Part shown: piece after piece, positions 2,663 through 18,765 of the stretch
How positions within the stretch are numbered: the first letter of the stretch is position 1
How the letters are laid out: each line of letters begins with the position of its first letter
IMG/VR virus record: IMGVR_UViG_3300017767_001797
Coordinates: 1 to 25,091 of that record
DNA length: 25,091 nucleotides
Origin: a virus
Reading direction: 5' to 3' (one strand)
Program-made: the position numbers and the translations under genes
Notes under the pieces: generated by a model
What the model was told of the DNA's origin: nothing
Database searches by the model: none
Seen by the model: only the letters and a program-made list of their open reading frames with translations

Positions 2663-2807
2663 TATATACAGCACAACGATTATAATTCTACTTTTATATA
2701 TCGTATGGATTGACCATAACTATATACAAGTTGGTTGGTGTGAGTCAGAAATAGATATATTGCGGAATACCATAGCTGATATACATACAATTCTTATACA
2801 AGATTAG
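2655..2807 (+). CDS. Small single-span membrane protein
   Basis: This 50-residue protein starts eight bases before the stop of the primase-helicase, in another frame, so it is probably translated by coupling. Residues 8-20 (TIIILLLYIVWI) form one hydrophobic segment, followed by a polar, acidic C-terminal tail. An in-frame ATG at 2643 would add four residues, and neither start has a strong ribosome site. Its stop overlaps that of the opposing kinase gene. No family is recognised; it could be a small inhibitor of host membrane functions, but nothing shows that. Confidence 0.45.
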   Translation: MTNIYSTTIIILLLYIVWIDHNYIQVGWCESEIDILRNTIADIHTILIQD

Positions 2808-3331
2808 CTTTGTATATGTTTAGATAGTTCTTTTGCTAATGCTCTGGAGTTTTCTATGTGGCTAAGTGTGTGAAACTCTATGAAATTGAACAGAGGTTCA
2901 GATTTTATGATGTTTTTTATCTTAGTTTCTCTTGATTTCTTGAATTTTTCAGACTGATTGTCTCCACGTTGTTTATGTCTAGCTGCTATTTCTTCTTCAT
3001 TATTCTGCAAAATTACAATCCTCGTGTCATAAGTATTAATTAGATTTATCAGATTATTCTCGGTGAAAAGCCTATCACCTTCAAACAATAGATGTTTTAG
3101 ATTTAAGTCTTTGTAAGTATCAAAATCTTTTTGTACTGCCATTGATAATTTATCAGTACCTGCAAACACTTCGTCTTTGTCGTATATTCCTAAAATAGAT
3201 ATATCGTGCTTCAAGTAACCTCTTAATAAACCATATTTAAACTTTGATTTAGGTTGCAATTCACTAAGAATACAACGCATTAATGTAGTTTTACCACTTG
3301 CAGGAACACCGCCTATAGCTACGCATTTCAT
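2804..3331 (-). CDS. P-loop kinase, candidate 5-hmdU DNA kinase
   Basis: This 175-residue P-loop NTPase begins with a Walker A motif (GVPASGKT, residues 8-15) right at the N-terminus. A Walker B-like strand follows at HLLFEGDRL (about 81-89), with a basic lid region (AARHKQRGDNQSEKFKKSR, residues 116-134). It overlaps the amino acid:DNA transferase candidate by ATGA. In phages with hypermodified thymine (SP10, W-14, ViI, M6), kinases of this general type phosphorylate 5-hydroxymethyl-deoxyuridine in DNA, and they sit beside the transferase. That role here is inferred from the neighbours. The motif alone would also fit a nucleotide kinase or a polynucleotide-type kinase. It is the last gene of the minus-strand cassette. 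Confidence 0.7.
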   Translation of the reverse strand: MKCVAIGGVPASGKTTLMRCILSELQPKSKFKYGLLRGYLKHDISILGIYDKDEVFAGTDKLSMAVQKDFDTYKDLNLKHLLFEGDRLFTENNLINLINTYDTRIVILQNNEEEIAARHKQRGDNQSEKFKKSRETKIKNIIKSEPLFNFIEFHTLSHIENSRALAKELSKHIQS

Positions 3332-4284
3332 AAGGTTTTATACTCCAAAGTACCTGTGTCTAAAAAGACACTATATAAATCTTTTCTAATTGTTTTACTT
3401 TCGTGCAATTTACTAGGCAATGTCTCTGTTCTCGCATCCCAAAAGACTTGCCAATCTATTCCATGCCAATTGTCTGCTTCAACTTTTTTTATTTCTTCTG
3501 CTTGTCTATCAAGATAATATCCCAAGTATCTGCCTTGTTTCTTTCTAAAAACCTTCTTAAAACTACATAAAAGCGTTTCCATCTGGTATAAATCCATGTC
3601 TACAGACAATCCTTTTTGGATTTCTGCCGCCTGTTGCTCAAGATATTGAATGCAGGACACATGTAGTTTTTGATTTATCCAATCATCATGTCCTAATGCA
3701 AAACACAATCCATTCCTATGTGAACGACTACCGCTATAATCTGCTAATTTTAAATTGTTTGGTACTAAGTCTAAGCCAACGCAATCCTTTAATGTTTGTA
3801 AGTAATACCAAGTAGAGTATCTGCCAAATTTGTGTAAATTTTTCTCAACACTATTCCAAATAAATTCAAAAGAATTCCTACGCAATAAATTAGCAAATCT
3901 ATGTCTTTGTGTTTTTTCCTCGTTCTCGTGCATAATCCACCGCTTATAGCTAGCAAACTGTTGTGGTAAATGCCCTTTATTCCATTTAGTATCAGTCTGA
4001 TAGCGTAATCTTGCATAGTTGTTATCATTCCAATCTTGTAATCTTTTTTGGTCTACTAATTCAAAGTCTGGAAACTCATTCCAAATTATCCATGTAGTCG
4101 GTAAATGATAAGTTGTACCATATATCCAACTAATCCAATATTTCTGTTCTATGTTGTGTTCAAATCTATCAAACAAATAATTCAAGAGCCATAATGCAGG
4201 GTCACAATCTTTATTGGTTAATGACCATTCACACCATTCTATAAAGGCTTCTTTCCTGTTTTCTTTAAGCCTGTAGTCAAGCAT
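3328..4284 (-). CDS. Putative amino acid:DNA transferase
   Basis: This 318-residue, mainly helical protein is rich in Trp and Tyr. Conserved-looking blocks include LPTTWIIWNEFPDFELVD (about 62-79), YQTDTKWNKGHLP (95-107), HKFGRYSTWYYLQTLKDC (151-168), DYSGSRSHRNGLCFALG (182-198) and GRYLGYYLDRQAEEIK (about 251-266). From memory these match the phage family first described as alpha-glutamyl/putrescinyl-thymine pyrophosphorylases (Iyer and colleagues 2013) and later as amino acid:DNA transferases (Lee and colleagues 2018). Those enzymes displace the activated phosphate on 5-hmdU with an amine. I could not check this by a search. The adjacent kinase and upstream TET/JBP oxygenase strongly support the reading. 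It overlaps the GNAT gene by eight bases. Confidence 0.68.
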   Translation of the reverse strand: MLDYRLKENRKEAFIEWCEWSLTNKDCDPALWLLNYLFDRFEHNIEQKYWISWIYGTTYHLPTTWIIWNEFPDFELVDQKRLQDWNDNNYARLRYQTDTKWNKGHLPQQFASYKRWIMHENEEKTQRHRFANLLRRNSFEFIWNSVEKNLHKFGRYSTWYYLQTLKDCVGLDLVPNNLKLADYSGSRSHRNGLCFALGHDDWINQKLHVSCIQYLEQQAAEIQKGLSVDMDLYQMETLLCSFKKVFRKKQGRYLGYYLDRQAEEIKKVEADNWHGIDWQVFWDARTETLPSKLHESKTIRKDLYSVFLDTGTLEYKTL

Positions 4285-4894
4285 TTAAGGATTTTCTTAG
4301 CCAGTAATCTTCTACAGATAGTATTGCTTCGTATGTCTGTATTAGTTTTTTCTCTGATAAATGTAAGTATTCTAAATCTTCTGTTTTTAATTTTTCACAT
4401 ACTTTTGTTTCAGGCATAACTAAACTTGGGTCACGCAATGCTCTTTCTCTCAATGCAATTTGTGCATCAATACTAGGCATAAGTGGTTGGTCTGAACGTA
4501 AGCTGCCTTGTTTATCTACTGACCAAAATACTAAACCATTTTTCTTATGAAATCCTATGCTATCAGGAGTACATGAAAGTTTAATCCTTTCCATGCCTTG
4601 CTGATGCCAATACGCTACAAACTCAGACCATATCTGTCTCGCATAGCCTTTGCGTTCTTGCCCTTGTATAGTGACAATCTCATACAAGTTTATATATTTA
4701 GATTTGTCGCTGCACGTTGCGAATATGGCTGCTACAGGCTCATTTTCTACATACAATACTGCAGGTAAGTGTTTGTTATAGTTTTGAAATCTAGTCCAAA
4801 GACTATGACTAGCTTTTAAAAATTTAGTGTTCTTACCTTTTGGTGCGTTATTTATAATATCTTGCACTACTTTTTCTTTTACAAATTTAATCAC
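4277..4894 (-). CDS. GNAT-family N-acetyltransferase
   Basis: This 205-residue protein carries a GNAT core. A beta strand NLYEIVTIQ is followed by the acetyl-CoA loop QERKGYARQI (79-88), matching the Q/RxxGxG/A pattern. Later come IKLSCTPDSIGFHKKNGLVFW (about 104-124) and the usual FHKKNGF-like turn. The C-terminal 80 residues are helical and not part of the minimal fold. Between the amidotransferase and the putative DNA transferase, its likely substrate is an amine installed on the modified base, or the small-molecule donor. In other hypermodifying phages GNATs have been predicted to cap or help tailor such amines. The substrate is inference only. It overlaps the upstream gene by ATGA. Confidence 0.8.
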   Translation of the reverse strand: MIKFVKEKVVQDIINNAPKGKNTKFLKASHSLWTRFQNYNKHLPAVLYVENEPVAAIFATCSDKSKYINLYEIVTIQGQERKGYARQIWSEFVAYWHQQGMERIKLSCTPDSIGFHKKNGLVFWSVDKQGSLRSDQPLMPSIDAQIALRERALRDPSLVMPETKVCEKLKTEDLEYLHLSEKKLIQTYEAILSVEDYWLRKSLNA

Positions 4895-5538
4895 TGTAAG
4901 TCCTCAATCACTTCTCTAATCAAAGATTTACGCATTTTGTTATTGATTATTGTGTAGTCTACGCAAGGCTCTGTTTTTTCGCATTCTGCAATGCCTGACC
5001 TCAGCAATATATCTTTAGTGCTAGCAATAAAAAATGTATTTTCTGTAGCTGCGTAATATAAAGGTCTTTGTTCATTTCTAAAAAAATGTAGTGCGTTTTG
5101 TTGTCTAGTGTCTATTAAAAGAGTTGCCATTGAGCCATGTAGTTTCAGTGGGTGACTTTGATTCTCCCATGTCCTTAATATAATTTCACTGTCGCATTTT
5201 GTTGTGAATTTAAGATTGTAAGTTTCTTCCCAAGTCTCTGGGTCTGCTTGAGTTATTACTCCATTGTGTGCTACTGCTACTTTGTCACTAAACACTGGTT
5301 GGTTGTACTCCAAATCAGATGTGCTGTACCGACAATGCCCTATAATCGTATTAGTCTCTATATCAGGCAGAGTGAAATCTTCTGCAGTTTCAGGCATAAC
5401 ATAAGTTTTGATATTGTCATTTTCAATCCATGCGATGCCTGTAGCATGTTTACCTCTAATCATAGATTGACTTAACATCTCTCTAAAGAGTTGCATATCT
5501 ACAATTTCTTTACTTTGTATACCTAATATCGCACACAT
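4891..5538 (-). CDS. Stand-alone class II glutamine amidotransferase
   Basis: This 215-residue protein is a single class II (Ntn-type) glutaminase domain. Cys2 directly follows the start Met and is the expected nucleophile. It also has RGKHATGIAW (28-37), GHCRYST (67-73, Arg70), AHNGVIT (90-96, the oxyanion Asn92-Gly93) and CDSE (115-118, substrate Asp116). All the hallmarks seen in GlmS, PurF and asparagine synthetase are present, but there is no synthase domain. It may feed ammonia to another cassette enzyme, or act directly as an amidohydrolase or transferase on the modified base. Which one is unknown. It shares one base with the oxygenase gene. Confidence 0.88.
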   Translation of the reverse strand: MCAILGIQSKEIVDMQLFREMLSQSMIRGKHATGIAWIENDNIKTYVMPETAEDFTLPDIETNTIIGHCRYSTSDLEYNQPVFSDKVAVAHNGVITQADPETWEETYNLKFTTKCDSEIILRTWENQSHPLKLHGSMATLLIDTRQQNALHFFRNEQRPLYYAATENTFFIASTKDILLRSGIAECEKTEPCVDYTIINNKMRKSLIREVIEDLQ

Positions 5539-6452
5539 TAACTCAGTTTCTCGCCTTTAGTCCTCGCTTTGGCTCTTTCTATTTCTGCTTCTGCATCTAA
5601 ACAATGGTGCATTTTTTTTCTGTAGTAACAGACTATGCTAATCCTTTCATATGCTAATTTTGCTTTGATTTCTGTATTTGCGTGGTACTCATGCACATTA
5701 AAAAAACACACATCACCGCTTCTTACGTCAAACGCTACCCTAAATCTAGGGATAACTGTATATCCGCCTTCGTATTTACCTGCTTGTAATACAGCTAAAT
5801 TCCCTAAACCCTCTTTCAAATCACCTGCGTCAGTGTGTAAAGCAGTTCTAAAGTTTTTATTGACAGTAATTGTTGTGAAAACAGTATCTTTTATCATAAA
5901 GTCTTTTTCTGTTTTATCAGCCATTTCCTTTTGATTATTATATTTTTCTGGACAGGCTTCTTCAAATAAGTTGTTAATACATTTTATGTAAGGGTATGCA
6001 TCAGCGAATTGTTTAAAGTTTTTCTCGTACCATGTAGTTTGCCTACAGTAAGGAAATCTTGCACCCCTATCAAAATAACCTACAATCCCTGAATTTACTG
6101 TATTTGCTCTAGATGTATTGCTTAGTATTCCGTCTTTTCTAACACCTTTGAATCTTATTTTTTGTAGGTCGCCTATATCCCAATCATCTTTTGTATCATC
6201 GCTAATAATCCCACCTGCTGCTCCTCTATTGTTAGTAGGTGCTGCTGCACTTCTTAGAGTGGTATATGCTTGTTTGCATAGTTCTGTAGGTATTTTGTTT
6301 TTTCTAAAAAAGAATAGCGGATTGCCTTCTTCGTCGTATGCATCGCAATCATCTCTGATAACTAAGTCATAATCGTTTTCATCTACCCAATCACCTTTTC
6401 TTTTAGCAATTTCTTCTTTAGAACAATGTGCCTTTAGATTATAGACTTTCAT
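5538..6452 (-). CDS. TET/JBP-type 2OG-Fe(II) dioxygenase
   Basis: This 304-residue protein carries the iron-binding triad H206-x-D208 and H257, with the 2-oxoglutarate-binding Arg at about R270 (RISIV). The surrounding pattern reads ITVNKNFRTALHTDAGD, then GKYEGGYTVIP, then SGDVCFFNVHEYHANTEI. The upstream region has RGAAGG (76-81) and TVNSGIVGYFDR (118-129). This arrangement is typical of the phage branch of the TET/JBP family, which oxidises the 5-methyl group of thymine or 5-methylcytosine in DNA. Beside a 5-hmdU kinase candidate and a DNA transferase candidate, thymine is the more likely substrate, giving 5-hydroxymethyluracil. It overlaps the ParB-like gene by 14 bases. Family assignment is strong; substrate is inferred. 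Confidence 0.85.
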   Translation of the reverse strand: MKVYNLKAHCSKEEIAKRKGDWVDENDYDLVIRDDCDAYDEEGNPLFFFRKNKIPTELCKQAYTTLRSAAAPTNNRGAAGGIISDDTKDDWDIGDLQKIRFKGVRKDGILSNTSRANTVNSGIVGYFDRGARFPYCRQTTWYEKNFKQFADAYPYIKCINNLFEEACPEKYNNQKEMADKTEKDFMIKDTVFTTITVNKNFRTALHTDAGDLKEGLGNLAVLQAGKYEGGYTVIPRFRVAFDVRSGDVCFFNVHEYHANTEIKAKLAYERISIVCYYRKKMHHCLDAEAEIERAKARTKGEKLS

Positions 6453-7065
6453 TTTTGAAACTCCTTTCTACAGCTTCAAATACTGTATCTGTAAGGTTTT
6501 CTTTTTGCCATTTCTCTTTAAGGTTTGCAATCATTTCTTGGAACTTAGGTTCAGTTTCACTATTTAAAAATATATTTACCATACGCACATTACTGGTCTG
6601 CACCTCTCCGAAATCTTCAAAGTTATCCTCAGTGACTATAGTTTCTGGTTCGTCAAACTCTAACATTGAAGCTGTCATTTTTTCTATTTCATCAAAATTG
6701 AATCCAGTAAGGTCTAAGTCATAATCTGAGTCTGCCAATTTTGCAAACTCTCCTGCTAATAATTCATTATCCCATTGTGAAAAGTCCTGACTTTTATTGT
6801 CCATAATCCTGAACGCTGTTTTCTGCTGTTCTGTGAGGTCTTTTGCAATATGTACAGGCACTTTGTCTAATTGTAGTAACTGTGCAGCTTTGAGCCTTGT
6901 ATGACCTGCTAATATCACATTGTCCTCATCTACAATAATAGGCACTTTCCAACCTACTTCTTTAATGCTCATTACTACCTTTTCTACTGATTCTTTATTT
7001 ATTCTTGGATTATCAGCGTATTCTTTTAAATCCAAAATGTCTGTCATGTTTACTTCGTAGCTCAT
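6439..7065 (-). CDS. ParB/sulfiredoxin-fold protein
   Basis: Residues 8-75 form a ParB-N/Srx domain: DLKEYADNPRINKESVEKV, then VGWKVPIIVDEDN, then the phosphate-binding GHTRLKAA (54-61) and VPVHIAKDL. The remaining 130 residues are acidic and helical (LDLTGFNFDEIEKM), without a recognisable helix-turn-helix. Phage proteins of this type often sit by DNA methylases or modification genes. Some have nuclease or CTP-binding activity, and they may direct modification enzymes to DNA. It follows the Cro-like gene closely; its ribosome site TTGGAG lies at the end of that gene, and the stop TAA is two bases before this ATG. Confidence 0.85.
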   Translation of the reverse strand: MSYEVNMTDILDLKEYADNPRINKESVEKVVMSIKEVGWKVPIIVDEDNVILAGHTRLKAAQLLQLDKVPVHIAKDLTEQQKTAFRIMDNKSQDFSQWDNELLAGEFAKLADSDYDLDLTGFNFDEIEKMTASMLEFDEPETIVTEDNFEDFGEVQTSNVRMVNIFLNSETEPKFQEMIANLKEKWQKENLTDTVFEAVERSFKNESL

Positions 7066-7067
7066 AT

Positions 7068-7274
7068 TTACTCCAAATAAAAATCGTTGGGTGTCACTAA
7101 TCCCTTAGTTGTTTTATATATTATATTCAATTCTTTCTTTCTTGGAATCCTTTGCGAAAGAATATATTTAGCTAATGTTCCTTGCGGTAGTTTGTGACCT
7201 GTTTCTCGTTCTATTTCAACGATAAATGCCGCTTGGGTGTAGTTATTCCTTTTTATATATTCGTTAAGTTTCAT
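7068..7274 (-). CDS. Cro/CI-like helix-turn-helix regulator
   Basis: This 68-residue protein reads as a compact Cro-type DNA-binding domain. Helix 1 is LNEYIKRNN, helix 2 begins TQAAFIVEI (13-21), and the recognition helix is near QGTLAKYILSQR (31-42). KKELNIIYKTTKG follows. It is the first gene of the modification cassette and is divergent from the recombination operon. A perfect 17-base palindrome in the shared gap is a natural operator candidate. It probably represses or balances both directions. No oligomerisation or peptidase domain is present, so this is not a full CI-type repressor. Confidence 0.7.
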   Translation of the reverse strand: MKLNEYIKRNNYTQAAFIVEIERETGHKLPQGTLAKYILSQRIPRKKELNIIYKTTKGLVTPNDFYLE

Positions 7275-7389: not shown

Positions 7390-8187
7390 ATGAAAAACGA
7401 TCCATTTGAAGTACACCACATAGACCACTTATCACCTTCTTCTGTAAACTGTTACATTGACGATATTCCGCTATGGATAATGCGTTATTTGTATGGTTTT
7501 AGGAATGGTGGTGGTCCAGCAATGTGGAGAGGAACAGTAGTTGACCATGCAGTAGGAAATATATTTGGATTGAATGAACATTCAAATCAATTAAGCATTC
7601 CTGAAGCCTTGAAAGAGTCTGAATTGGAATACAAAAAACTATATCACTATTGTAGAAAAGAGTACCCTGAACAAAATATAGATGAAAACCAATATAAAAG
7701 AGAAGGCAACAATGTTAGTACCTATACTAAGACTGCTTTAGATTTTTATAAGAAAATTGGTCAACCTACCGAATACCAAAAAGAAATAAATTTAATGTTA
7801 GAAGATATACCTGTTCCAGTAAGAGGATATATTGACTTGCAATACCAAGACATTATTAGGGATATCAAGACCACTGGTCGTATGCCTAGTAAAGTATCTG
7901 ATGCTCATGCTAGACAGGTTTCTGTTTATGCTAAAGCCTTAGATTGTTCGCCTGTATTAGATTACATTCATGTTTCTGCTAAAGAAAATCAAGTAGTTAC
8001 AATGCCTGTAAACAATGTAGATGAACATATAACTGTGGTAAGACAGGTTGCGTTAGCAATAATGAACCTCTTATCTTTTTCTAATGACAAACAAGTTATA
8101 GCAAACTTATTTTATCCTAACTTTGACGATTGGAAGTGGAAGGAAGATGAGATTAATTTTGCTAAAACTATATGGAGTATAAAATGA
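7390..8187 (+). CDS. RecB/Cas4-like PD-(D/E)XK exonuclease
   Basis: This 265-residue protein has the ordered motifs of the RecB/Cas4/lambda-exonuclease class: an early His (GTVVDHAVG, H53), Asp149 in VRGYIDL, DIK (D158-x-K160), and QVSVYAKAL (Q176-x3-Y180). These residues coordinate the metal and align the DNA. Next to the annealing-protein candidate it would resect double-strand ends to make 3' tails for strand annealing, in the manner of Red-alpha with Red-beta. It is the first gene of the rightward operon, with GAGGAG nine bases upstream of ATG. Its stop overlaps the next start as ATGA. Confidence 0.88.
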   Translation: MKNDPFEVHHIDHLSPSSVNCYIDDIPLWIMRYLYGFRNGGGPAMWRGTVVDHAVGNIFGLNEHSNQLSIPEALKESELEYKKLYHYCRKEYPEQNIDENQYKREGNNVSTYTKTALDFYKKIGQPTEYQKEINLMLEDIPVPVRGYIDLQYQDIIRDIKTTGRMPSKVSDAHARQVSVYAKALDCSPVLDYIHVSAKENQVVTMPVNNVDEHITVVRQVALAIMNLLSFSNDKQVIANLFYPNFDDWKWKEDEINFAKTIWSIK

Positions 8188-8882
8188 ATGATACATTGAT
8201 AAATTGTATAAATGAAGTAGCAAACCTTACTAATGCAGATAAGGTTAATATAAAAGGAAAGTTCTACACGACTGTAGACACTAGAGTAGACCTATTCAGG
8301 AAACATTTCGGCTGTAATGCAGAAATTGTAACTGATATTGTTATGAATGACTTAGAAAGAGTCGTTGTAAAGGCTTCTGTTTCTATCAAAAATGATGGTG
8401 AATGGAAACTTATAGGCTCTGGATATGCCGAGGAGTTCAGAGGACAAGGCATGGTCAATAAAACGTCTGCTTTAGAGAACTGCGAAACCTCTGCTGTAGG
8501 TAGAGCATTGGCGGCATGTGGACTAGGTGGCGGTGCATACGCTTCTTCTTTTGAGGTAGATAATGCCATCAATAATAAATCAGAAGCACCAAATCTTGAT
8601 GATGGTTATGTTTTAAGACGACCAACAGGAACTGTTCTACAACATTGTGTTGATGAAAAGATTTTTCTTAAACACTTAAGAACTTTCTTAGGCGACCCAA
8701 CTAATCAAGAACATAGAGAACTTTACGAAGTAAATGCTGATGAAATAAAGAAAGCATCAGAACATGCAACTGTAAAGAAAGACCAAGATGCTTATAAGAA
8801 ACTCATATCACTTTATGACGAGTATGAAGAAGCAGAAGCAGAACGTAATCAAGAAGCTGAACTCAATGAGCAAAGCGAATAG
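8184..8882 (+). CDS. Putative single-strand annealing protein
   Basis: This 232-residue protein carries the block NKTSALENCETSAVGRAL followed by AACGLGGG (about 92-118). That block recurs in a large set of phage proteins related to the ERF/Rad52-like annealing group. The N-terminal half is a mixed alpha/beta core; the last 60 residues are acidic and helical (DEYEEAEAERNQEAELNEQ), as is common in annealing proteins. Pairing with the upstream exonuclease by ATGA overlap supports a recombinase role. An upstream in-frame ATG at 8172 would overlap more of the exonuclease and has no better ribosome site. The exact family needs a profile search; an unrelated essential phage protein is the main alternative. 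Confidence 0.6.
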   Translation: MNDTLINCINEVANLTNADKVNIKGKFYTTVDTRVDLFRKHFGCNAEIVTDIVMNDLERVVVKASVSIKNDGEWKLIGSGYAEEFRGQGMVNKTSALENCETSAVGRALAACGLGGGAYASSFEVDNAINNKSEAPNLDDGYVLRRPTGTVLQHCVDEKIFLKHLRTFLGDPTNQEHRELYEVNADEIKKASEHATVKKDQDAYKKLISLYDEYEEAEAERNQEAELNEQSE

Positions 8883-9138
8883 TATTACAGACTTCGTTTA
8901 TTTGTGTATGCGTGATGGCTCTTGGTGGACTTTTTGGGAATTGCAAGATGTCATCAAAACGAAAACAGGTAAATACTATGGAGAACCTTCTTTATCTGCC
9001 GCTATAAGGGATTTAAGGAAAACACCTTATAGGGAAAAATATGACCTACAAATGTGGGGAGAAGTAGTAGAGAAGAAAAGAATAACTAATGGCAAAGGTT
9101 ATAAATATAAATTAACAACAGGAGATAAAAATGGCTGA
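8866..9138 (+). CDS. Small winged-helix-like protein
   Basis: This 90-residue protein contains a pattern typical of a winged helix: ITDFVYLCMRDGSWWTFWELQDVI (about 7-30), then SLSAAIRDLRKTPY (residues 42-55), then a basic beta wing (KKRITNGKGYKYKL). It is likely a DNA-binding regulator or replication accessory. The start at 8866 overlaps the annealing-protein gene by 17 bases. A longer reading from 8788 would overlap it far more and is less likely. The gene overlaps its downstream neighbour by eight bases, so it belongs to the same operon. Confidence 0.6.
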   Translation: MSKANSITDFVYLCMRDGSWWTFWELQDVIKTKTGKYYGEPSLSAAIRDLRKTPYREKYDLQMWGEVVEKKRITNGKGYKYKLTTGDKNG

Positions 9139-9523
9139 TGAATATGTAATGAAAGAAAATACTGGAAGTTTGTTTCACGAAACAAAAGTAACAGTACCAA
9201 GGAAAGGTAAAATGAAAATAGGCAATACTGAACAGTATGGTGCAATTTTGAAATATGTAGACAAAAATGGTAACGAGAAATATGAACTTGTCGCTAGTTT
9301 AGGTTTACTGCACTACAATCCGCCTGAAAGCAAAAGGACAGAAGGCACACCAGATATCGGTGGTAAGATTACATACAATGGCACAGTATATAAATGTGGC
9401 GGCTATGCTAATCAAACACAAACAGGTATAGATTATACTAAATTGCTTTTTACACCTTATGATGAGGAAGGTAACTTAATAATCCCTGAAAAGAATACTG
9501 ATAATTCTGATGCTGCATTCTAG
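9131..9523 (+). CDS. Hypothetical protein of recombination operon
   Basis: This 130-residue protein is rich in short beta stretches (KMKIGNTEQYGAILKYVD, YELVASLGLL, GKITYNGTVYKCGGY) and ends in an acidic tail with a terminal Phe (NTDNSDAAF). A small beta barrel with such a tail would be reminiscent of single-stranded-DNA-binding proteins, but no firm OB-fold signature is visible and this is only a suggestion. It has a clear ribosome site (GGAG, ten bases upstream). Its position among nuclease and annealing genes fits a DNA-metabolism role. Confidence 0.6.
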   Translation: MADEYVMKENTGSLFHETKVTVPRKGKMKIGNTEQYGAILKYVDKNGNEKYELVASLGLLHYNPPESKRTEGTPDIGGKITYNGTVYKCGGYANQTQTGIDYTKLLFTPYDEEGNLIIPEKNTDNSDAAF

Positions 9524-9525
9524 AT

Positions 9526-9858
9526 ATGGAAGAAGAACTATGGATGCACCGAATAAGGAAACTAGCAGAACCCATACAAAAAGCTGAATACGAGGTTTTT
9601 GAAGCAGATGCTAATGTTAAACGTATTATTGCTAGACTTAAGTTAGAAGCTACGCATAAAGGTTGCACTACTGTTTCTGCACAAGAGGTATATGCAGAAA
9701 ATACAGACCAACTTCATGCCGCTAGATTAAACATTGGCTTAAAAAAAGGTCAATTAGCAGGTTTGAAAGTGCAACTAGATGCTATTAAAGTAGGCTTTGA
9801 GGAATGGCGAACAAAAATGGTCAATATGCGTGAAGAACGTAAAAACTATGGTGCATAG
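9526..9858 (+). CDS. Coiled-coil hypothetical protein
   Basis: This 110-residue, highly charged, helical protein has two predicted coiled stretches, at roughly 10-45 and 65-105, separated by THKGCTTVSAQEVYAENT. Its pattern of alanine and lysine/glutamate heptads resembles small phage scaffold-like or nuclease-accessory proteins. No catalytic motif is visible. The start lies two bases after the preceding stop, without a clear ribosome site, which suggests coupled translation. Function is unknown. Confidence 0.6.
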   Translation: MEEELWMHRIRKLAEPIQKAEYEVFEADANVKRIIARLKLEATHKGCTTVSAQEVYAENTDQLHAARLNIGLKKGQLAGLKVQLDAIKVGFEEWRTKMVNMREERKNYGA

Positions 9859-10188
9859 GTGAAAACTAGCAGTGCAAAGGCTAAAGGACGTTTATTGCAA
9901 AAATGGTTTGTAGAAGTATTGATTGAAAAATTGCAGCTTAACCCTAATGATTTAGAGTCTAGACCTATGGGTAGTCAAGGTGAAGATGTTATTTTAGGCA
10001 ATGAATCTAGGAAAAAATTTCCTTTGTCTGTTGAATGTAAGAATCAAGAAGCAGTCAATGTTTGGAAATCATATGAACAATGCCAAGATAATTGCAAAGG
10101 TTATGAACCATGTTTAGTTATTAAAAGAAATAGAAGTAAGCCGCTAGTTGTAGTAGATGCAGAATACTTTGTGAGTCTTTTTAAATAA
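9859..10188 (+). CDS. PD-(D/E)XK nuclease, resolvase-like
   Basis: This 109-residue protein begins with GTG directly after the preceding stop. The core GSQGEDVILG (38-47) and LSVECKNQE (56-64) gives the D43...E59-x-K61 arrangement of the PD-(D/E)XK fold. A helix with KAKGRLLQKWFVEVL precedes it, as in archaeal-type Holliday-junction resolvases and VRR-type nucleases. The strand PCLVIKRNRSKPLVVV follows. Small stand-alone enzymes of this kind resolve recombination junctions before packaging. The fold is fairly clear; the exact substrate is inferred from the recombination setting. It shares one base with the next gene. Confidence 0.72.
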   Translation: MKTSSAKAKGRLLQKWFVEVLIEKLQLNPNDLESRPMGSQGEDVILGNESRKKFPLSVECKNQEAVNVWKSYEQCQDNCKGYEPCLVIKRNRSKPLVVVDAEYFVSLFK

Positions 10189-10511
10189 TGAAAGGCAGAA
10201 CACCCAACAAGGCAGAAAAACAACACATGGACAGAGTTAGTCAGCTAGGTTGTATCATTTGCCGCCAACAAGGTAAAGGCAGAGTACCTTGCGAAATCCA
10301 CCATGTTGATGGCAAAACTAAACCTGATGCACATTTTAAAGTATTACCTTTATGTTTTGAACATCACAGAATGGGAAGCGATAAAGAACCTATTAGCCGC
10401 CACCCATACAAGGCTAGATTTGTAGCAACTTATGGTACTGAAAGTGATTTATTAGAATTAGTAGATAAGTTGTTGGAATTAGATGATTATTCAGACACTT
10501 TACCTTTTTAA
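10188..10511 (+). CDS. Ref-like HNH nuclease
   Basis: This 107-residue protein has paired cysteines C22 and C25 (GCIIC), an IHHV motif (H38-H39), LCFEHHR (C56, H59, H60) and a further H72 in SRHPYKARF. This is the layout of P1 Ref-type recombination-enhancement nucleases, a zinc-stabilised HNH variant that cuts DNA at RecA-made displacement loops. The neighbouring annealing, exonuclease and resolvase-like genes fit. It ends the first rightward gene run, before the promoter at 10526. Confidence 0.82.
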   Translation: MKGRTPNKAEKQHMDRVSQLGCIICRQQGKGRVPCEIHHVDGKTKPDAHFKVLPLCFEHHRMGSDKEPISRHPYKARFVATYGTESDLLELVDKLLELDDYSDTLPF

Positions 10512-10525
10512 ATTTATTGGTTTTT

Positions 10526-10568
10526 ATTCCGAAAAGCACTTGCCTTATAATACAATATAAAGAAGAAT
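10526..10568 (+). promoter_or_regulatory. Early promoter copy 2 (repeat family)
   Basis: ATTCCGAAAAG (10526-10536), -35 TTGCCT (10540-10545), 17-base spacer and -10 AAGAAT (10563-10568). TAAGTTAA at 10577-10584 is a degenerate version of the TAAATTGA element of the other copies. It drives the gene at 10626. The box and -35 (ATTCCGAAAAGCACTTGCC) are identical to those of copy 3. Confidence 0.7.
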
Positions 10569-10625
10569 TATAATCATAAGTTAATAATGACTTATATAAA
10601 ATGAGCCGAAAGGCGTGGAGATAAA

Positions 10626-11502: not shown

Positions 11503-12381
11503 ATGAAATCTAATGAAGTGTTTAAAAAAATGCAAAAAGAAATCCTTGAGTTGATGAAAACTGAAGGTCAAGATTGGACTAAATCTTGGATTGGTGTTGG
11601 TGTTCCTACCAATTTCACAAGCAGAAAAGCATATAGAGGTATCAATCAATGGTGGTTAGCCATACAGGGTTATAAATCTAATGAATGGGGTACTTACAAA
11701 CAATGGTCTGAAAAAGGCTATCAAGTAAAAAAAGGCTCAAAGTCTACACCTATAATCTTTTCTTCAATGCAGAAGAAAAAAGAATCATGGTTGAAAGATG
11801 AAGAATTAGCTAGGTACAAAGCTACAGGCGAATTACCTTCATACTTCTACTGGAAGTCTTGGAATGTTTTTAATGCTGACCAAATAGAAGGTTATACACC
11901 AAACAAAGAAGTAAAAGACGCTAAAAAAGAATTAACCATAGAAGAAGTTAATGCAATACAGTCTTTTATAGATAATACAGGTGCTAATATAGTAGTAGGC
12001 GGTGATGTTGCTTGTTACATACCAAGTCAAGACGAAATCAATATGCCGCATATCAAACAGTTCTTCTCTGATTCTGAATATTTTGCAGTAACTTTGCATG
12101 AATTAACGCATTGGACTAAGCATGAATCAAGAACTAACAGAGATGCTAAAGACTTATCTTATGCAGAAGAAGAACTTGTTGCTGAAATAGGTTCAGCTTT
12201 TCTATCACAATTACTAGGTGTAGAAAAGTCAGTAAGACCTTGTCATGCAAAATACTTAAATAACTGGATAGAAGCCATAGCAGATAGTGAAAAAGCGATG
12301 ATACAAGCCTTTTCAATGGCACAAAAAGCAGTAGATTTTTTAACTAACTTACAGGAGAAAAAGAAAGAGAAGGCTGCATAG
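11503..12381 (+). CDS. ardC: ArdC-like antirestriction protein
   Basis: This 292-residue protein joins an N-terminal ArdC-type single-stranded-DNA-binding region to a C-terminal zincin-like metallopeptidase. The DNA-binding region covers about 1-130, with the signatures TNFTSRKAYRGINQWWLA and WGTYKQWSEKGYQVKKGSK. The peptidase has H199-E200-L-T-H203 with AEEELVAEIGSAFL (221-234) downstream, supplying the third metal-ligand glutamate. ArdC proteins of conjugative plasmids and phages protect incoming DNA against host restriction, although how the peptidase contributes is not settled. Expression from its own early promoter fits protection soon after DNA entry. The next small gene begins after a terminator hairpin formed at its stop codon. 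Confidence 0.85.
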   Translation: MKSNEVFKKMQKEILELMKTEGQDWTKSWIGVGVPTNFTSRKAYRGINQWWLAIQGYKSNEWGTYKQWSEKGYQVKKGSKSTPIIFSSMQKKKESWLKDEELARYKATGELPSYFYWKSWNVFNADQIEGYTPNKEVKDAKKELTIEEVNAIQSFIDNTGANIVVGGDVACYIPSQDEINMPHIKQFFSDSEYFAVTLHELTHWTKHESRTNRDAKDLSYAEEELVAEIGSAFLSQLLGVEKSVRPCHAKYLNNWIEAIADSEKAMIQAFSMAQKAVDFLTNLQEKKKEKAA

Positions 12382-14890: not shown

Positions 14891-15278
14891 TTTTGTCAAA
14901 CATATTAGGGTTAGTTATATTTATAAGGTTATCCATGACTCTGCCACTAGCCTTATTGACCCTAGTTTCAATAAGTTTTGGTTTCATTAGTGCCAAATTG
15001 TTTAAATCATGCCTTGCAAATTTGTTTCTTAATTCTGTTACTGCTCTATTTGCTTCTGCTTTTTCTATTTCTAGAGCATCTAACTGTGCATTATGTCTCT
15101 CTTGATTGGCTAAATACGTTTTAATTGATTCGTTTTGCTCTGTGATTTTGCCCTCTAAGACTATTTGATTGCCTTGCAAGATTGCCATTTGGTTGTGCAA
15201 ATACTTTATGTAAAACGCAGAACCACTTACAGAAGCCAACAACAACCCTCCCAATATCAAACTAAGTTTAAATCCCAT
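14865..15278 (-). CDS. Inner-membrane spanin (Rz-like)
   Basis: This 137-residue protein has an N-terminal membrane segment (residues 5-24) and a periplasmic coiled coil (about 28-95, ILQGNQIVLEGKITEQNESIK, then ERHNAQLDALEIEKAEANRAV). HDLNNLALMKPKLIETRVNKAS follows, a stretch familiar from phage Rz-like proteins. It overlaps the lipoprotein gene by 26 bases and the cyclase by 11. The pair would act after endolysin cuts the wall. This is evidence that the host is Gram-negative. The family is assigned by topology and order rather than sequence search. Confidence 0.78.
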   Translation of the reverse strand: MGFKLSLILGGLLLASVSGSAFYIKYLHNQMAILQGNQIVLEGKITEQNESIKTYLANQERHNAQLDALEIEKAEANRAVTELRNKFARHDLNNLALMKPKLIETRVNKASGRVMDNLINITNPNMFDKNEESVTNN

Positions 15279-17025
15279 ATACTTTTAAAGCCTTTTCTTT
15301 ACCTTTTACTTTAATCTCTTTCACTAAGTGTAAATCATGTTTAGTATTTTTTGCAGTGTTTTCTCCTATTAATAAGTCAACACCAACATCTTTTGTAGCT
15401 GATTCTAACCTAGCAGCAGTATTGACAGAATCGCCAATAGCAGTATAGTCAAACCTAGATGAACTTCCCATATTCCCTATTGTTGATTGCCCTGTGTTTA
15501 TGCCTATTCCTATGGCTATGGTCGGCAATGCTTCCTTTTTAAGTTCTTCATTCAAAGATTTCATATTCTCTACTATTTGTAAAGCACAACTTATAGCTGC
15601 ATCTTCGTGGTTTTCTAGGTCTAAAGGTGCATTAAATATTGCCATGAGTGCATCCCCTATATACTTGTCTACCATTCCTGAATATTGTTGTACTGCTTCT
15701 TGTTGTGCAGTTAGTGCTTTATTCATTATGTATGTTACTTTTTCTGGCGGCATAGACTCTGACATAGATGTAAAACCTCTGACATCTGTGAATAAATAAG
15801 TAGCGTTCCTTTTTTCTCCGCCTAGTACGAGTAACTCAGGATTGTCCTGTAAGCGTTTAATTTGTCTTGGGTCTAAGTAATGCTCAAATTGTTTTTTAAT
15901 TTCTAATCTTAATTTGAATTGTTCCCTGAATCTTAAATAGAAAGCTACCGCACCTGTTATAAATTGTGACAACAAAGTCCATGTTACATCAATCAATATG
16001 CCTTTTTGTATTAGGTAATATCCAGAAGCCGCTGTAATCAACATTAATAACGTAGCTATACTTATACCCAATGTTATCCCAAAACTGCTTAGAACGAGCC
16101 ATATGGCTATCACTGTGATAAAAAGCATAGCAATCTCGGCTGCTAATGCATAATCAGGTACAAATGGACTATTTTCTATTAACAAAGATTCTGACAATGC
16201 TGCTTGTATATAGTGTGGCTCTAACAAACCAACTGGTGTAGCTAATTGCGGCATTACACCTTTTGCTGTTACACCAACAAATACAAATTTATTTTCTACT
16301 TCCATTTCAGACAATGAGGTTTCACGTGGAACAATCCAAGATATCCATTTTCTACCGAAACTATCTGTCTTGACTGGATTTATACCTTTGACTGTTATTT
16401 CCTCTATACCATTATCATTCGTTTTTATAATGTAAGTATCTGCACCAGTCAGAGATTTCAAAACTTGTGTGCCGAAAGAAGCAATCCAACCATCAGGAGA
16501 TTTGTATAACAAAGGTATTCTTCTTACTAAATTATCAACATCCACAGGTGCTGATGCAATTCCTTCTAGTGCATTTAATCCTTTAATATTCTGTACTGTA
16601 CCGCCAGAAAGAAAACCACCTTTTCCTTCTCCTAAAATAACTGTTCCAGTTGTTTTTGGATATATACCATTATTGTTTTCAAACAAAGCTATGACTGAAG
16701 GCGAATAAGACAATGCTTCAGCAAAGTATTTATCACCACCAAACCTGTCTGCATGTGGGAATGCTAGAACCCAACCTACACCCAATGCACCTTTTCTTAG
16801 AAGGTCTATATGTATTTTTGCTAATGTTTCTCTTGGAAAAGGGTAACCACCTGCTGCATCAACATCGGCTTCTGTTATATTTAATATTGCGAAATTTCCA
16901 GAAGGTGCAGGAGTTTCTATTAAATAATCAAATGTTTTGAGTTTTAATATTTCTGTTGGTGTACTTTGGAATATAAGTGGTAGTGATAATACTAACAATA
17001 AACATAAGCCAAATTTATAATTCAT
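15268..17025 (-). CDS. CHASE2-domain class III adenylate cyclase
   Basis: This 585-residue protein has an N-terminal hydrophobic segment (5-19) and a periplasmic CHASE2 sensor (about 25-285, with FPRETLAKIHIDLLRKGALGVGW and FVFVGVTAKGVMPQLATPVG). Three membrane segments follow (about 292-313, 316-337, 342-364), then a linker and a cytoplasmic cyclase (405-580). All catalytic residues are visible: metal ligands D414 (FTDVRGF) and D458 (KYIGDALMAIF), base-binding K454 and T528, and transition-state N535 and R539 (GDSVNTAARLES). Thr at 528 favours ATP, making cAMP. An active membrane cyclase is highly unusual in a phage. It overlaps the FecR gene by ATGA and the spanin by 11 bases, so it is part of the late operon. 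Confidence 0.95.
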   Translation of the reverse strand: MNYKFGLCLLLVLSLPLIFQSTPTEILKLKTFDYLIETPAPSGNFAILNITEADVDAAGGYPFPRETLAKIHIDLLRKGALGVGWVLAFPHADRFGGDKYFAEALSYSPSVIALFENNNGIYPKTTGTVILGEGKGGFLSGGTVQNIKGLNALEGIASAPVDVDNLVRRIPLLYKSPDGWIASFGTQVLKSLTGADTYIIKTNDNGIEEITVKGINPVKTDSFGRKWISWIVPRETSLSEMEVENKFVFVGVTAKGVMPQLATPVGLLEPHYIQAALSESLLIENSPFVPDYALAAEIAMLFITVIAIWLVLSSFGITLGISIATLLMLITAASGYYLIQKGILIDVTWTLLSQFITGAVAFYLRFREQFKLRLEIKKQFEHYLDPRQIKRLQDNPELLVLGGEKRNATYLFTDVRGFTSMSESMPPEKVTYIMNKALTAQQEAVQQYSGMVDKYIGDALMAIFNAPLDLENHEDAAISCALQIVENMKSLNEELKKEALPTIAIGIGINTGQSTIGNMGSSSRFDYTAIGDSVNTAARLESATKDVGVDLLIGENTAKNTKHDLHLVKEIKVKGKEKALKVYGI

Positions 17026-18188
17026 GAGCTTTGTTTAATTGTTATAGTGGAATCTCCACCACCATTAATCTTAACTACATTTGAGACACCATCTTGCACA
17101 ATAATTAATGTATATGAGCCGCTACCATCTAAATCTAATTGCATAGAATCTGATACTTGTCGTCTAAGTGATATTTGTTGTCCTGTTATAATTGTAGTTA
17201 TTTGCGTGTCTGTATCTTTGCCAATATTAGTGCCTGATATTTTAATACCAGTCGCCTGTAAGTTTAGTTCATCTTCGTCCTCACCTATTGCTAAGGCATC
17301 TAAGATATTTAGTAAATCTTCTAGGAAATTCACATCTAAATAATTTATATCTAACTCGGTAAACTGTAATTCATTTCTATTGTCTAAAAAATCTTCTGCT
17401 AAAAAATCAATGTCTAAGTCATTGAAGTCCAAATAGTCTGCAGACTTTGTTTGTTGGCTTTCTTCAGCATAAGATACATTTTGTTTAGGTGGATTCACAA
17501 TCAACATATTGTCTATAAATTCTAGGGTAAGGTCTAAAATAACAGGTTTACTAGGCATATTCGTAAACAGTGTAGCTGTAGTGGATTCATAAGGTTTGTT
17601 CAATGTTACGCTTCCCATACCAGTAGATACTATAATTTCACCACTAGAAAGACCATTGATATCAGGTAGCAAAATAATAAGACTTCTTCCGAACTCGTCT
17701 ACAGTACAAGTAAAATCTGTACCACGAATAGCTATATTTGCAGTTGGTGTTTGCAAAGTAATGTTTTTTTTGTCTATCTTATTAAGACTGCCTGTAATGA
17801 ATCTAGCAGTACCACTAGCAAACTTGAGTGCCATTTTAGATTTAGAAGGATTAGGGTCATAGATGTATTCATCTATTATCAAAGAAGAATGTTCGGTTAG
17901 TTTTACTTGTGATTCATCTAAAAATTCAATAGCAATACGTCCATTAGATGTCCTTACATCATCAAGACTTTGTATAGGAAATTTTATTGTCGGGTCATAT
18001 TCATCATCTCTGATGACTTTTGTATAACCGCTTAACTCTTTAACTTCTCCAATATCAGCAACCGACTGCTGTGCCTTGATCGTTTTGGTTGATACACACA
18101 ACGCCAGAACTACCAGTACTTTCCACTTTAAGCCAGTCGTTATCAAGTGTACTAGCTTGGTCAATATTGAATGTTCTGCTACCGCCAT
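17022..18188 (-). CDS. Secreted FecR-domain protein
   Basis: From the ATG at 18188 the product is 388 residues. It has a signal peptide (about 20-39, GLKWKVLVVLALCVSTKTIKA) and a FecR domain (about 75-200) with FLDESQVKLTEHSSLIIDEY, LKFASGTARFITG and LQTPTANIAIRGTDF. A low-complexity Leu/Asp-rich stretch (250-300) follows. The C-terminal 50 residues (MQLDLDGSGSYTLIIVQDG, then SNVVKINGGGDSTITI) resemble a curlin repeat. Such proteins often lie next to CHASE2 cyclases in bacteria, so it may deliver a periplasmic signal. The 5' end overlaps the curlin-like gene by up to 134 bases in another frame. TTG starts at 18164 or 18146 would give a shorter signal peptide; none has a clear ribosome site. 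Confidence 0.85.
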   Translation of the reverse strand: MAVAEHSILTKLVHLITTGLKWKVLVVLALCVSTKTIKAQQSVADIGEVKELSGYTKVIRDDEYDPTIKFPIQSLDDVRTSNGRIAIEFLDESQVKLTEHSSLIIDEYIYDPNPSKSKMALKFASGTARFITGSLNKIDKKNITLQTPTANIAIRGTDFTCTVDEFGRSLIILLPDINGLSSGEIIVSTGMGSVTLNKPYESTTATLFTNMPSKPVILDLTLEFIDNMLIVNPPKQNVSYAEESQQTKSADYLDFNDLDIDFLAEDFLDNRNELQFTELDINYLDVNFLEDLLNILDALAIGEDEDELNLQATGIKISGTNIGKDTDTQITTIITGQQISLRRQVSDSMQLDLDGSGSYTLIIVQDGVSNVVKINGGGDSTITIKQSS

Positions 18189-18765
18189 CGTGCGTAAGGT
18201 GGAAATATCCGCCTGCATATCCATCTCCATTATAAGTTACTGTGTTATCACTACCATCTAAACTCATATAGTTTGTTGCACCATCTACATCAATAGCTGC
18301 AGTTATGCTGTTATTACTACCTTGTATAATCCAATCAAGGTCTAACTGACTCGCCAAAGCAGATGTTGCATGATTTAGTGTAAAGACATTTGAGCCACCT
18401 GTCACATCAACATTAACATTTGAGCCATCAGCACCAAACGCATTTGTTGGGTCTGTCTGCATATTAAATACATTGCTGCTGCCATCAAACTCAAAAAAAC
18501 CTGTGTAATTATCAGCCCAAATATCACCTAAGAATTTATTGGTAGAACCAATCATATTTATATCAAGCGTCATACTAGCACCATCTAAATCTAGTGCAGT
18601 CATAGAACCTGCAGTAGAACCAGTACCACCTATGATGTTACCAGAACCCATTTGCTCTATATCAGCATTAAAAGTCGCACCTGACTGATTTATATACACT
18701 TCATTATCTGCTGCATAAACGATTGTGCCTAACAACAGAGCTATTACTGTTAATAATTTATTCAT
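18055..18765 (-). CDS. Curlin-like secreted repeat protein
   Basis: This 236-residue protein has a clear signal peptide (1-18, cleaved after IVYA) and no further membrane segment. The mature part begins NEVYINQSGATFNADIEQMG, which fits the curlin pattern Q-x-G-x-x-N-x-A-x-x-x-Q. About eight further strands follow with a recurring G-S-x-N core (GSGNIIGG, GSTNKFLG, GSSNVFNM, GSNVNVDV, GSNVFTLN, GSNNSITA, GSDNTVTY). It is rich in Gly, Ser, Asn and Asp and nearly free of Lys, as expected for a beta-solenoid amyloid subunit. Cys224 and Cys236 could form a disulfide. TTGGAG lies nine bases before ATG. It would be exported through the CsgG pore encoded just upstream. Confidence 0.78.
   Translation of the reverse strand: MNKLLTVIALLLGTIVYAADNEVYINQSGATFNADIEQMGSGNIIGGTGSTAGSMTALDLDGASMTLDINMIGSTNKFLGDIWADNYTGFFEFDGSSNVFNMQTDPTNAFGADGSNVNVDVTGGSNVFTLNHATSALASQLDLDWIIQGSNNSITAAIDVDGATNYMSLDGSDNTVTYNGDGYAGGYFHLTHDGGSRTFNIDQASTLDNDWLKVESTGSSGVVCINQNDQGTAVGC

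Follow-up and report, generated by a model that had tools for sequence, protein, structure and literature searches.

A TET/JBP oxygenase cassette of an ocean virus with amidotransferase and GNAT genes suggests a post-replicative route to amine-modified thymine

Phages M6, ViI and phiW-14 hypermodify thymidine, the known products being 5-NedU, 5-NeOmdU and putrescinylthymine. Iyer et al. are said to have predicted in 2013 that hydroxymethylpyrimidines made by TET enzymes serve as starting points, and mycobacteriophage Hydro carries ParB, TET, amino acid:DNA transferase (ADDT) and kinase genes, and the idea of a TET route is therefore an older one. According to a passage of PMC6449724, a 5hmdU DNA kinase adds a phosphate to 5hmdU in DNA before further modification, and a passage of PMC12730594 describes the hydroxylation of thymine by JBP. 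The paper on the glycinyltransferase and flavin-dependent lyase concerns, by its title, 5-NmdU (Wen et al., 2024). Here, we analyse a 25,091-nt fragment of an ocean virus (IMG/VR record IMGVR_UViG_3300017767_001797), referred to in its entirety as the window. We put at roughly 0.7 the probability that its modification cassette encodes a post-replicative, TET-started pathway to a thymine amine, irrespective of the nucleophile. The new part is a pair of genes for a class II glutamine amidotransferase (GAT) and a GNAT N-acyltransferase, joined in 27 of 69 locus groups by an amidoligase-like gene. A literature search, which missed key papers, returned no TET cassette with an amidotransferase, and we make no claim that the combination is unpublished.

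The cassette spans positions 2804-7274 and comprises, in order of position, genes for a P-loop kinase (KIN), ADDT, GNAT, GAT, the TET/JBP oxygenase, a ParB-like protein and a 68-residue ORF, all of which lie on the minus strand and abut or overlap. Every gene was located where the sequence-only reading had placed it; the six enzymes counted there become five, with the ParB-like protein and the 68-residue ORF as the remainder. The TET/JBP 2OG-Fe(II) oxygenase (304 residues; 5538..6452, minus strand) scores 94 bits against Tet_JBP (PF12851; Pfam cut-off 34.9). Across the alignment, His206, Asp208 and Arg270 are retained in 86/86 sequences and His254 in 84/86; we take the HxD, distal His and Arg of the PF12851 domain to be the 2OG-Fe motif. 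A sequence search for a solved TET homologue gave none that was convincing, the sole match being at 0.11. Judged from its gene context, the enzyme is probably a thymine hydroxylase. The adjoining ParB_N-domain protein (208 residues; 6439..7065, minus strand; 34.9 bits against a Pfam cut-off of 26.3) belongs to a cluster represented in 51 of 97 locus groups and is a likely DNA-loading or targeting partner of TET. The 68-residue ORF (7068..7274, minus strand) has a cluster of 15 relatives, gave nothing over the cut-off in a Pfam scan and is possibly a Cro-like HTH regulator.

KIN (175 residues; 2804..3331, minus strand) matches only P-loop models of Pfam below their cut-offs, among them AAA_18 (25.7 versus 29.4 bits) and Ploopntkinase3 (PF18751; 21.2 versus 27 bits). 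Its Walker A motif is intact (Gly8, Pro10, Gly13 and Lys14 in 72/72 sequences), and the structure model (pLDDT 94.8) has an NMP-kinase fold, with a best Z score of 12.8 and 3.0 Å over 141 residues. The kinase profile (A7) finds gp4 of Hydro as a homologue (1.1e-15), and in one metagenomic ORF of 1024 residues (L274) TET and KIN are fused. The characterized 5-hmdU DNA kinase families PF18723 and PF18747 are both missing from the Pfam matches of the window kinase at E 1; as positive controls, Cygsa01 has one protein matching each profile and Vibrio phage K452 matches PF18747. The kinase is thus of another P-loop family than the sequence-only reading had supposed, and would phosphorylate the hydroxymethyl group of a base in DNA. 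A 'terminase small subunit' label (phrog_800, 5e-9) is ruled out by the NMP-kinase-type fold; we think that this label stems from genes adjoining the terminase. ADDT (318 residues; 3328..4284, minus strand) is assigned by PF18724 at 75.5 bits (6.6e-21; Pfam cut-off 26.2), as had been proposed. Relatives of it are present in 376 phage records, and a sequence search for a solved homologue gave zero matches.

The entry point to 5-hmdU was examined through the distribution of PF00303, which was searched over whole records for 44 of the 97 locus groups and four later records. Among TET-less ADDT phages, PF00303 is above the cut-off in 9/9 (6/6, W07-W12; 2/2, M6 and phiW-14; and 1/1, phage Simon) and TET, by PF12851, in 0/9, these nine controls not being independent, as several are Ackermannviridae. 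Among TET-bearing records, PF00303 is above the cut-off in one of 57, made up of 0/45 and 0/4 IMG/VR records and one of eight named phages. That phage, the cultured Caulobacter phage Cr30, has TET, ADDT and kinase genes; its PF00303 match is strong (372.9 bits), and we read the protein as a putative ordinary thymidylate synthase. The window record has no PF00303 match. Like most IMG/VR records it is a fragment, of 25 kb, and a missing PF00303 or PF00145 therefore says little about a single record. In the TET record G005, a 13-bit stretch falls below the PF00303 cut-off. ThyX (PF02511) occurs in 4/45 of the IMG/VR records with TET, all four among the largest, and its product there may be dTMP or, with lower probability, hydroxymethyl-dUMP. 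The 71-kb genome of Hydro has no match to PF00303, PF00145 or PF02511. In the records searched, TET and PF00303 thus hardly ever occur together, which suggests that TET takes the place of the usual dUMP hydroxymethylase. The search beyond the cassette that had been called for agrees with the proposal that TET opens a different way to 5-hmdU.

These records also bear on the alternative that TET acts on 5-methylcytosine, like the TETs of phages with a C5-methylase, and that the kinase, ADDT, GAT and GNAT decorate 5hmC. By the title of Burke et al. (2021), phage TETs are active in C5-cytosine hypermodification, and Melnitz phage has in a row an HhaI-type methylase, TET, a putative c28-like protein and a kinase of the window family (33% identity). 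The Melnitz C5-methylase beside TET and such a kinase raises the possibility that 5hmC, too, is a substrate of the kinase family. On the other side, the C5-methylase PF00145 is found in one of 53 TET-bearing records (one of eight named phages, neither Hydro nor Cr30, and 0/45 IMG/VR records, the window included); the profile detects Melnitz phage and 10/14 control genomes. Furthermore, in 5/6 sibling contigs, genes homologous to the glycinyltransferase and flavin-dependent lyase of the thymidine pathway lie between TET and KIN. Cytosine as the main substrate was dropped on the PF00145 result and is kept as an improbable alternative because of Melnitz.

Loci were taken from scans that kept the best 80 matches (for TET of at least 576 confirmed, for ADDT of 103 and for GAT of 118), so that the counts lean towards window-like cassettes. 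The 252 loci were merged by shared 80-mers into 97 groups, with one representative counted per group. Some cassettes are cut short at contig edges; the counts below refer to the 69 groups with both TET and KIN. The module is widespread, with 69 such dereplicated groups: 53 have GAT and GNAT, four have GAT only (L079, L129, L152 and L248), none has GNAT only and 12 have neither. GAT directly follows TET and precedes ADDT in most loci, an order that is kept at ∼40-60% protein identity. On a TET tree covering 65 of the 69 groups (TETs under 260 residues were left out), GNAT follows GAT in a mean of 4.7 of five independent pairs and never the reverse, a test that with five pairs (median p 0.0625) cannot reach 0.05. 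Searches of genome contigs for hosts and prophages gave six loci with the TET alignment (A1), all in metagenome-assembled genomes, and no copies with the GNAT alignment (A4); these two alignments thus revealed the GAT-GNAT version in no cultured organism.

Six of eight contigs with relatives of the glycinyltransferase carry TET, that transferase, the flavin-dependent lyase and a kinase of the window family. The two partner proteins match PDB entries 8z2m (6.5e-12) and 8z2o (3.7e-11), and their genes sit between TET and KIN except in L284, which is rearranged. In L145 and L152 they stand in place of the GNAT-ADDT genes, and this exchange of the GNAT-ADDT block for 5-NmdU genes speaks for an amine as the outcome of either block.

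GAT (215 residues; 4891..5538, minus strand) is a stand-alone class II glutamine amidotransferase domain that scores 54.6 bits against GATase_6 (Pfam cut-off 27), aligns with PurF (8w7d, 2.8e-9) and has no fused synthase. Cys2 and Arg70 are retained in 69/69 sequences and Asn92, Gly93 and Asp116 in 68/69, the N-terminal Cys being the nucleophile and the Arg, Asn-Gly and Asp forming the glutamine site. We know of no explanation for a GAT in the known hypermodification pathways, and the sequence-only reading had likewise found it unaccounted for by their products. In cultured phages, class II GATs (214 records) are weak relatives, the best among the matches listed having 28.6% identity. GNAT (205 residues; 4277..4894, minus strand) scores 25 bits against Acetyltransf_1 (PF00583; cut-off 20.7), and its structure model (pLDDT 96.5) matches N-acetyltransferases with a best Z score of 12.2 and 2.4 Å over 134 residues; Mom-like or aminoacyl-tRNA-dependent donor enzymes were not among the top structure matches listed. 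The canonical GNAT acyl-CoA motif is Q/R-x-x-G-x-G/A, and the window protein reads ERKGYA there, with Glu in the first position. At E 0.01, a search of 50,697 phage records gave no relative of GNAT. GNAT had been taken as a sign of a possibly new base; Lee et al. (2021/22) reportedly list acetyltransferases among thymidine-hypermodification enzymes, and for that reason GNAT alone implies no new base.

GAT and GNAT might instead be passengers of a different pathway, for example one for small peptides or surface modification, leaving TET, KIN and ADDT as the DNA pathway. Ten TET, KIN and ADDT groups indeed lack both genes, as in a Hydro-type pathway, and phage LUZ24, the only cultured-phage GAT region examined of the 214 records, has a class II amidotransferase with a RimK-domain gene (gp19 and gp21) and no TET annotated nearby. 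The conserved place of GAT between TET and ADDT and the absence of GNAT without GAT among the 69 groups speak against this arrangement, and we regard it as very improbable.

A stronger competitor, which has the TET-kinase-ADDT core in common with our best explanation and differs in the role of GAT, is that ADDT installs an amino acid (for example glycine, as in M6-like phages), that ammonia from GAT amidates its carboxylate and that GNAT acetylates an amine, giving an amide-bearing or peptide-like thymine. The ligase would be the amidoligase where present, and in the window an unseen one. An Amidoligase_2-like gene, a weak match below the cut-off, occurs in 27 of the 69 groups, always with GAT, and in 0/12 groups without GAT, and its usual place is between GAT and GNAT. 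A passage of PMC12783734 describes amide ligases acting on phage DNA (CmoY), one CmoY cluster having a glutamine-hydrolysing domain. Against this, 28 groups with GAT and GNAT, including that of the window, have no amidoligase on the contig, and amide formation needs activation by ATP, for which the cassette has no other obvious enzyme. Of the seven independent pairs on the TET tree that differ in the amidoligase, a mean of 6.3 show no change in GAT, so that the two genes cannot be said to vary together. We consider amidation rather unlikely.

The scheme that we infer, conditional in each of its chemical steps, begins with the ParB-like protein loading or targeting TET on DNA, where TET would hydroxylate thymine to 5-hydroxymethyluracil, standing in for the phage dUMP hydroxymethylase of M6, ViI and phiW-14. 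The P-loop kinase would then put a phosphate on the hydroxymethyl group and ADDT would swap it for a nitrogen nucleophile; these steps, the hydroxylation included, very probably run on thymine. What GAT and GNAT contribute in a DNA-modification setting is a best guess. GAT would hydrolyse glutamine to ammonia, with the ADDT reaction as acceptor, to give 5-aminomethyl-dU directly, and GNAT would acylate, or cap, the amine. The ADDT reaction is the simplest acceptor since the window cassette has no amidoligase or synthetase partner; we give ammonia as the ADDT nucleophile somewhat less than even odds, and we know of no precedent for its direct transfer to ADDT. In a bolder reading, which we hold to be less likely than not, GAT ammonia and ADDT would make 5-aminomethyl-dU in one step from phosphorylated 5-hydroxymethyluracil in DNA and bypass the detour through glycine and a flavin lyase, GNAT would turn it into N-acylaminomethyl-dU, siblings with the amidoligase-like gene would lengthen the chain to peptide-like thymines, and TET and the kinase would act as an interchangeable front end to which phages couple various modules for making amines. 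The hypermodification pathway proposed in the sequence-only reading thus survives in its ADDT, its TET entry point and its unexplained GAT, and gives way in the known 5-hmdU kinase family and in GNAT as a mark of novelty.

If TET makes 5-hmdU after replication, thymine could be hypermodified without an altered nucleotide pool, polymerase or thymidylate synthase. Such a route, if real, could explain the trait in small phages and would give a function to phage TETs that have no C5-methylase. It would also provide a modular enzyme family, with Hydro as a relative cultured on M. smegmatis, by which DNA carrying modified thymine could be produced and the defences recognizing such DNA investigated.

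Compared with M6, ViI and phiW-14, the window shares the ADDT family PF18724 and the logic of a kinase followed by amine substitution, and differs in having TET rather than PF00303, another P-loop kinase family and the extra GAT and GNAT. The 5-NmdU pathway (8z2m and 8z2o) resembles it in that both homologues accompany TET and a window-family kinase in six siblings, and the 5-aminomethyl product suggested here would match; the window has neither gene and carries GAT, GNAT and a standard ADDT instead. Cytosine systems with TET, a C5-methylase and TAGT share the TET/JBP oxygenase, and TAGT (PF20691) adjoins TET in some siblings of the window TET (L173, L183 and P12024L); the window differs in having no PF00145 C5-methylase, and the 28 ORFs scanned gave no TAGT match. 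Base J of kinetoplastids is made with JBP of the same oxygenase superfamily and is glycosylated next, whereas phosphorylation and amination would follow in the window. Another close arrangement is that of Coopervirus, in which genes 1-4 of Hydro encode ParB, a very divergent TET (26.1 bits on Pfam, below the cut-off), ADDT and Ploopntkinase3 in the same order as the window core. All four functions of this Cooper-type row (ParB, TET, ADDT and a Ploopntkinase3-type kinase) are present in the window; Hydro has no annotated GAT or GNAT among genes 1-5, whereas the window inserts both.

The window takes in the entire linear IMG/VR virus record of 25,091 bases. Seven overlapping or abutting ORFs on the minus strand at 2804-7274 encode, in order of transcription, a 68-residue product, a ParB_N protein, a TET/JBP oxygenase (TET), a glutamine amidotransferase domain of class II that stands alone (GAT), a GNAT, the amino acid:DNA transferase (ADDT) and, last, a P-loop kinase (KIN). 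ParB_N, Tet_JBP, GATase_6/7, Acetyltransf_1 and ADDT pass their Pfam gathering scores; KIN passed none in the scan of the window ORFs and is, by sequence, the weakest of the assignments. The cassette proposed in the sequence-only reading is confirmed, with every named enzyme except KIN over a Pfam cut-off, and its enzymes stand, but they number five and not six, the other two ORFs being the ParB_N protein and the 68-residue ORF. Elsewhere, the minus strand carries a curli/type VIII secretion cluster (15268-20045) containing CsgF (19509-20045; PF10614, 1.9e-20), CsgG (18758-19609; PF03783, 1e-49), FecR (17022-18230) and a CHASE2-cyclase (15268-17025); a passage of PMC9599517 describes T8SS genes together with FecR and adenylate cyclase in pelagiphages. 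The plus-strand gene at 11503-12381 (ArdC N-terminal domain and zincin metallopeptidase; PF08401, PF18818) is, judging from its domains, of the anti-restriction type and is carried by the same phage as the cassette.

The Walker A residues G8, P10, G13 and K14 of KIN, together with D60, E84, D86, R87, R118 and R122, are invariant among 72 aligned members. Its AlphaFold2 model (pLDDT 94.8) is closest to adenylate-kinase-6-like proteins (Z 12.8, 3.0 Å, 141 residues) and also matches O-phosphoseryl-tRNA kinase (Z 11.5, 3.4 Å, 147 residues); KIN belongs to another P-loop family than the known 5-hmdU kinases. The GNAT model (pLDDT 96.5) matches serotonin N-acetyltransferase over 134 residues at 2.4 Å (Z 12.2) and RimI over 133 residues at 2.6 Å (Z 12.1). 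The acyl-CoA motif of GNATs has Gln or Arg at its first position; the window loop, ERKGYA, has Glu. In GAT, whose best solved relative is PurF (8w7d, 2.8e-9), C2 and R70 are present in 69/69 aligned sequences and N92, G93 and D116 in 68/69; in TET, H206, D208 and R270 are present in 86/86 and H254 in 84/86.

In the known pathway, as outlined in a section of PMC6449724, 5hmdU enters DNA, is phosphorylated by 5hmdU DNA kinase and is then substituted; for phiW-14, a passage of PMC5977210 places hydroxymethyl addition at the dUMP level. Whereas 5hmdU is there made before incorporation, TET of the window cassette is proposed to form 5-hmdU in DNA, which KIN would phosphorylate and ADDT would substitute, with GAT supplying ammonia and GNAT capping.

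PF00303, a family that takes in phage dUMP hydroxymethylases, scores over the cut-off in all nine TET-less phages with ADDT or glycinyltransferase (Cygsa01, K452, Menlow, phiMAM1, phiA8-29, LIMEstone1, phiW-14, M6 and Simon; PF12851 in 0/9). It does so in 0/45 IMG/VR TET records and 0/4 further ones, mostly fragments, and, of eight named TET phages, in Cr30 but not in HTVC112P, P12024L, Melnitz, DLP_6, S-CBWM1, C48C1 or Hydro; one TET record (G005) has a sub-cut-off stretch of 13 bits. The C5-cytosine methylase family PF00145 occurs in 0/45 of these mostly fragmentary records and in one of the eight phages, Melnitz. Phage Simon, in which the PF12851 search found no TET, encodes a glycinyltransferase, a flavin-dependent lyase, an amidoligase-like gene, a weak kinase match and a PF00303 protein, and is a case of the same downstream enzymes as in TET siblings fed through another entry point. 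Points against are the largely fragmentary state of the IMG/VR TET records, ThyX (PF02511) in 4/45 of them, and Melnitz, which joins a C5-methylase, TET and a window-family kinase. Set against these points, the three contrasts (PF00303, PF00145 and Simon) favour thymine and lend support, by inference, to TET as the entry point, as first read. In Methylophilales phage Melnitz-3, 4010-8090 (L255) encodes consecutively the C5-methylase, TET, a protein that we read as similar to protein cluster c28, and the kinase; chemistry like that of the window kinase possibly acts there on 5hmC.

Loci were drawn from viral-contig scans with TET, GNAT, GAT and ADDT (best 80 matches each), three named phage loci and the window locus; 252 loci collapsed to 97 groups, 69 with both TET and KIN on the contig. 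The slot after TET varies: L150 and L160 have no gene between TET and KIN, L146 and L147 have ADDT alone, and L145 has an ADDT-family protein and an FAD protein, to which L152 adds GAT. The ADDT-family protein matches a solved glycinyltransferase (8z2m, 6.5e-12), and the FAD protein matches a solved flavin-dependent lyase (8z2o, 3.7e-11). Wen et al. (2024), who reportedly describe these two structures, deal with 5-NmdU according to their title. A dedicated scan found glycinyltransferase relatives on eight contigs, six with TET, glycinyltransferase, lyase and KIN; on the remaining contigs, L282 and L283, the match is close to a contig end. Six of 19 groups with TET and without KIN carry a cluster of TET-associated glycosyltransferase (PF20691). 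TET is thus a front end onto exchangeable downstream modules. PF18724 is found nowhere in the L150 and L160 records (G020, 28 kb; G023, 47 kb), where the pathway either stops at phosphorylated hydroxymethyl-dU or goes on through another transferase. In L274, from a contig assigned to a gammaproteobacterial MAG, TET (profile match residues 147-348) and KIN (835-1011) share one 1024-residue open frame (7518-10589), also detected by PF12851, and an ADDT relative lies at 1640-2722 of that locus; the fusion links oxidation directly to phosphorylation.

Among the 69 TET+KIN groups, 53 have GAT and GNAT, four GAT only, none GNAT only and 12 neither, the commonest order being ParB, TET, GAT, (amidoligase), GNAT, ADDT, KIN. 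On the TET tree (65 groups) GAT requires at least five changes and GNAT eight; in five independent pairs differing in GAT, too few to reach p 0.05, GNAT differs in the same direction in 4.7 on average and never in the opposite one. The two genes tend toward joint gain or loss, which argues that GNAT works on a product that GAT helps to make. Since no amidoligase or synthetase was found on the window contig, ADDT, the sole cassette enzyme with an amine-accepting reaction, is the proposed acceptor of ammonia from GAT (probability roughly 0.4). That an installed amino acid is amidated instead is the less likely alternative here, and gains plausibility in cassettes with an Amidoligase_2-like gene (27/69 groups, each time with GAT; Pfam score below cut-off). 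Siblings swap the GNAT-ADDT genes for glycinyltransferase and lyase, which supports, at the level of gene content, a common aminomethyl product to which both blocks would lead.

Other proteins accompany these cassettes. A low-molecular-weight phosphatase (c87; PF01451; L208, L248, L129) adjoins the amidoligase-like gene in cassettes with GAT and without GNAT, and could remove a phosphate within the pathway. The c28 protein (13 members, about 430-490 residues) lies between GNAT and ADDT (e.g. L239, 428-1840; L111, 10151-11491), with weak ParB-like matches (phrog_1033, 4.5e-5) and no Pfam match. A 246-residue protein (c61) lies between TET and ADDT in cassettes without GAT (L187, 7768-8508; L192, 8927-9667); it had no Pfam or PHROG match over cut-off, and may, on our own reading, resemble methyltransferases.

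The sequence-only reading, in which the final base could be new because of the amidotransferase and GNAT, is partly supported: GNAT is not new by itself, and GAT remains unexplained by the known products. The cassette, probably TET-started, is a variant of already known thymidine hypermodification, with GAT as the unexplained element. Iyer et al. (2013) reportedly predicted TET/JBP-generated hydroxymethylpyrimidines as starting points for hypermodification. Part of PMC6449724 cites that study for hypermodification gene clusters. The core of the finding is already present in cultured phages, since genes 1-4 of mycobacteriophage Hydro, annotated as ParB-like, oxidoreductase, hypothetical and adenylate kinase, hold ParB-like, TET (gene 2; Tet_JBP, 26.1 bits, below cut-off), ADDT (gene 3; 36.8 bits) and KIN (gene 4; Ploopntkinase3, 238 bits), and cassette-derived profiles match them (TET 6.4e-7, ADDT 1.4e-21, KIN 1.1e-15). 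Hydro and the window phage have this ParB-like, TET, ADDT and kinase core in common.
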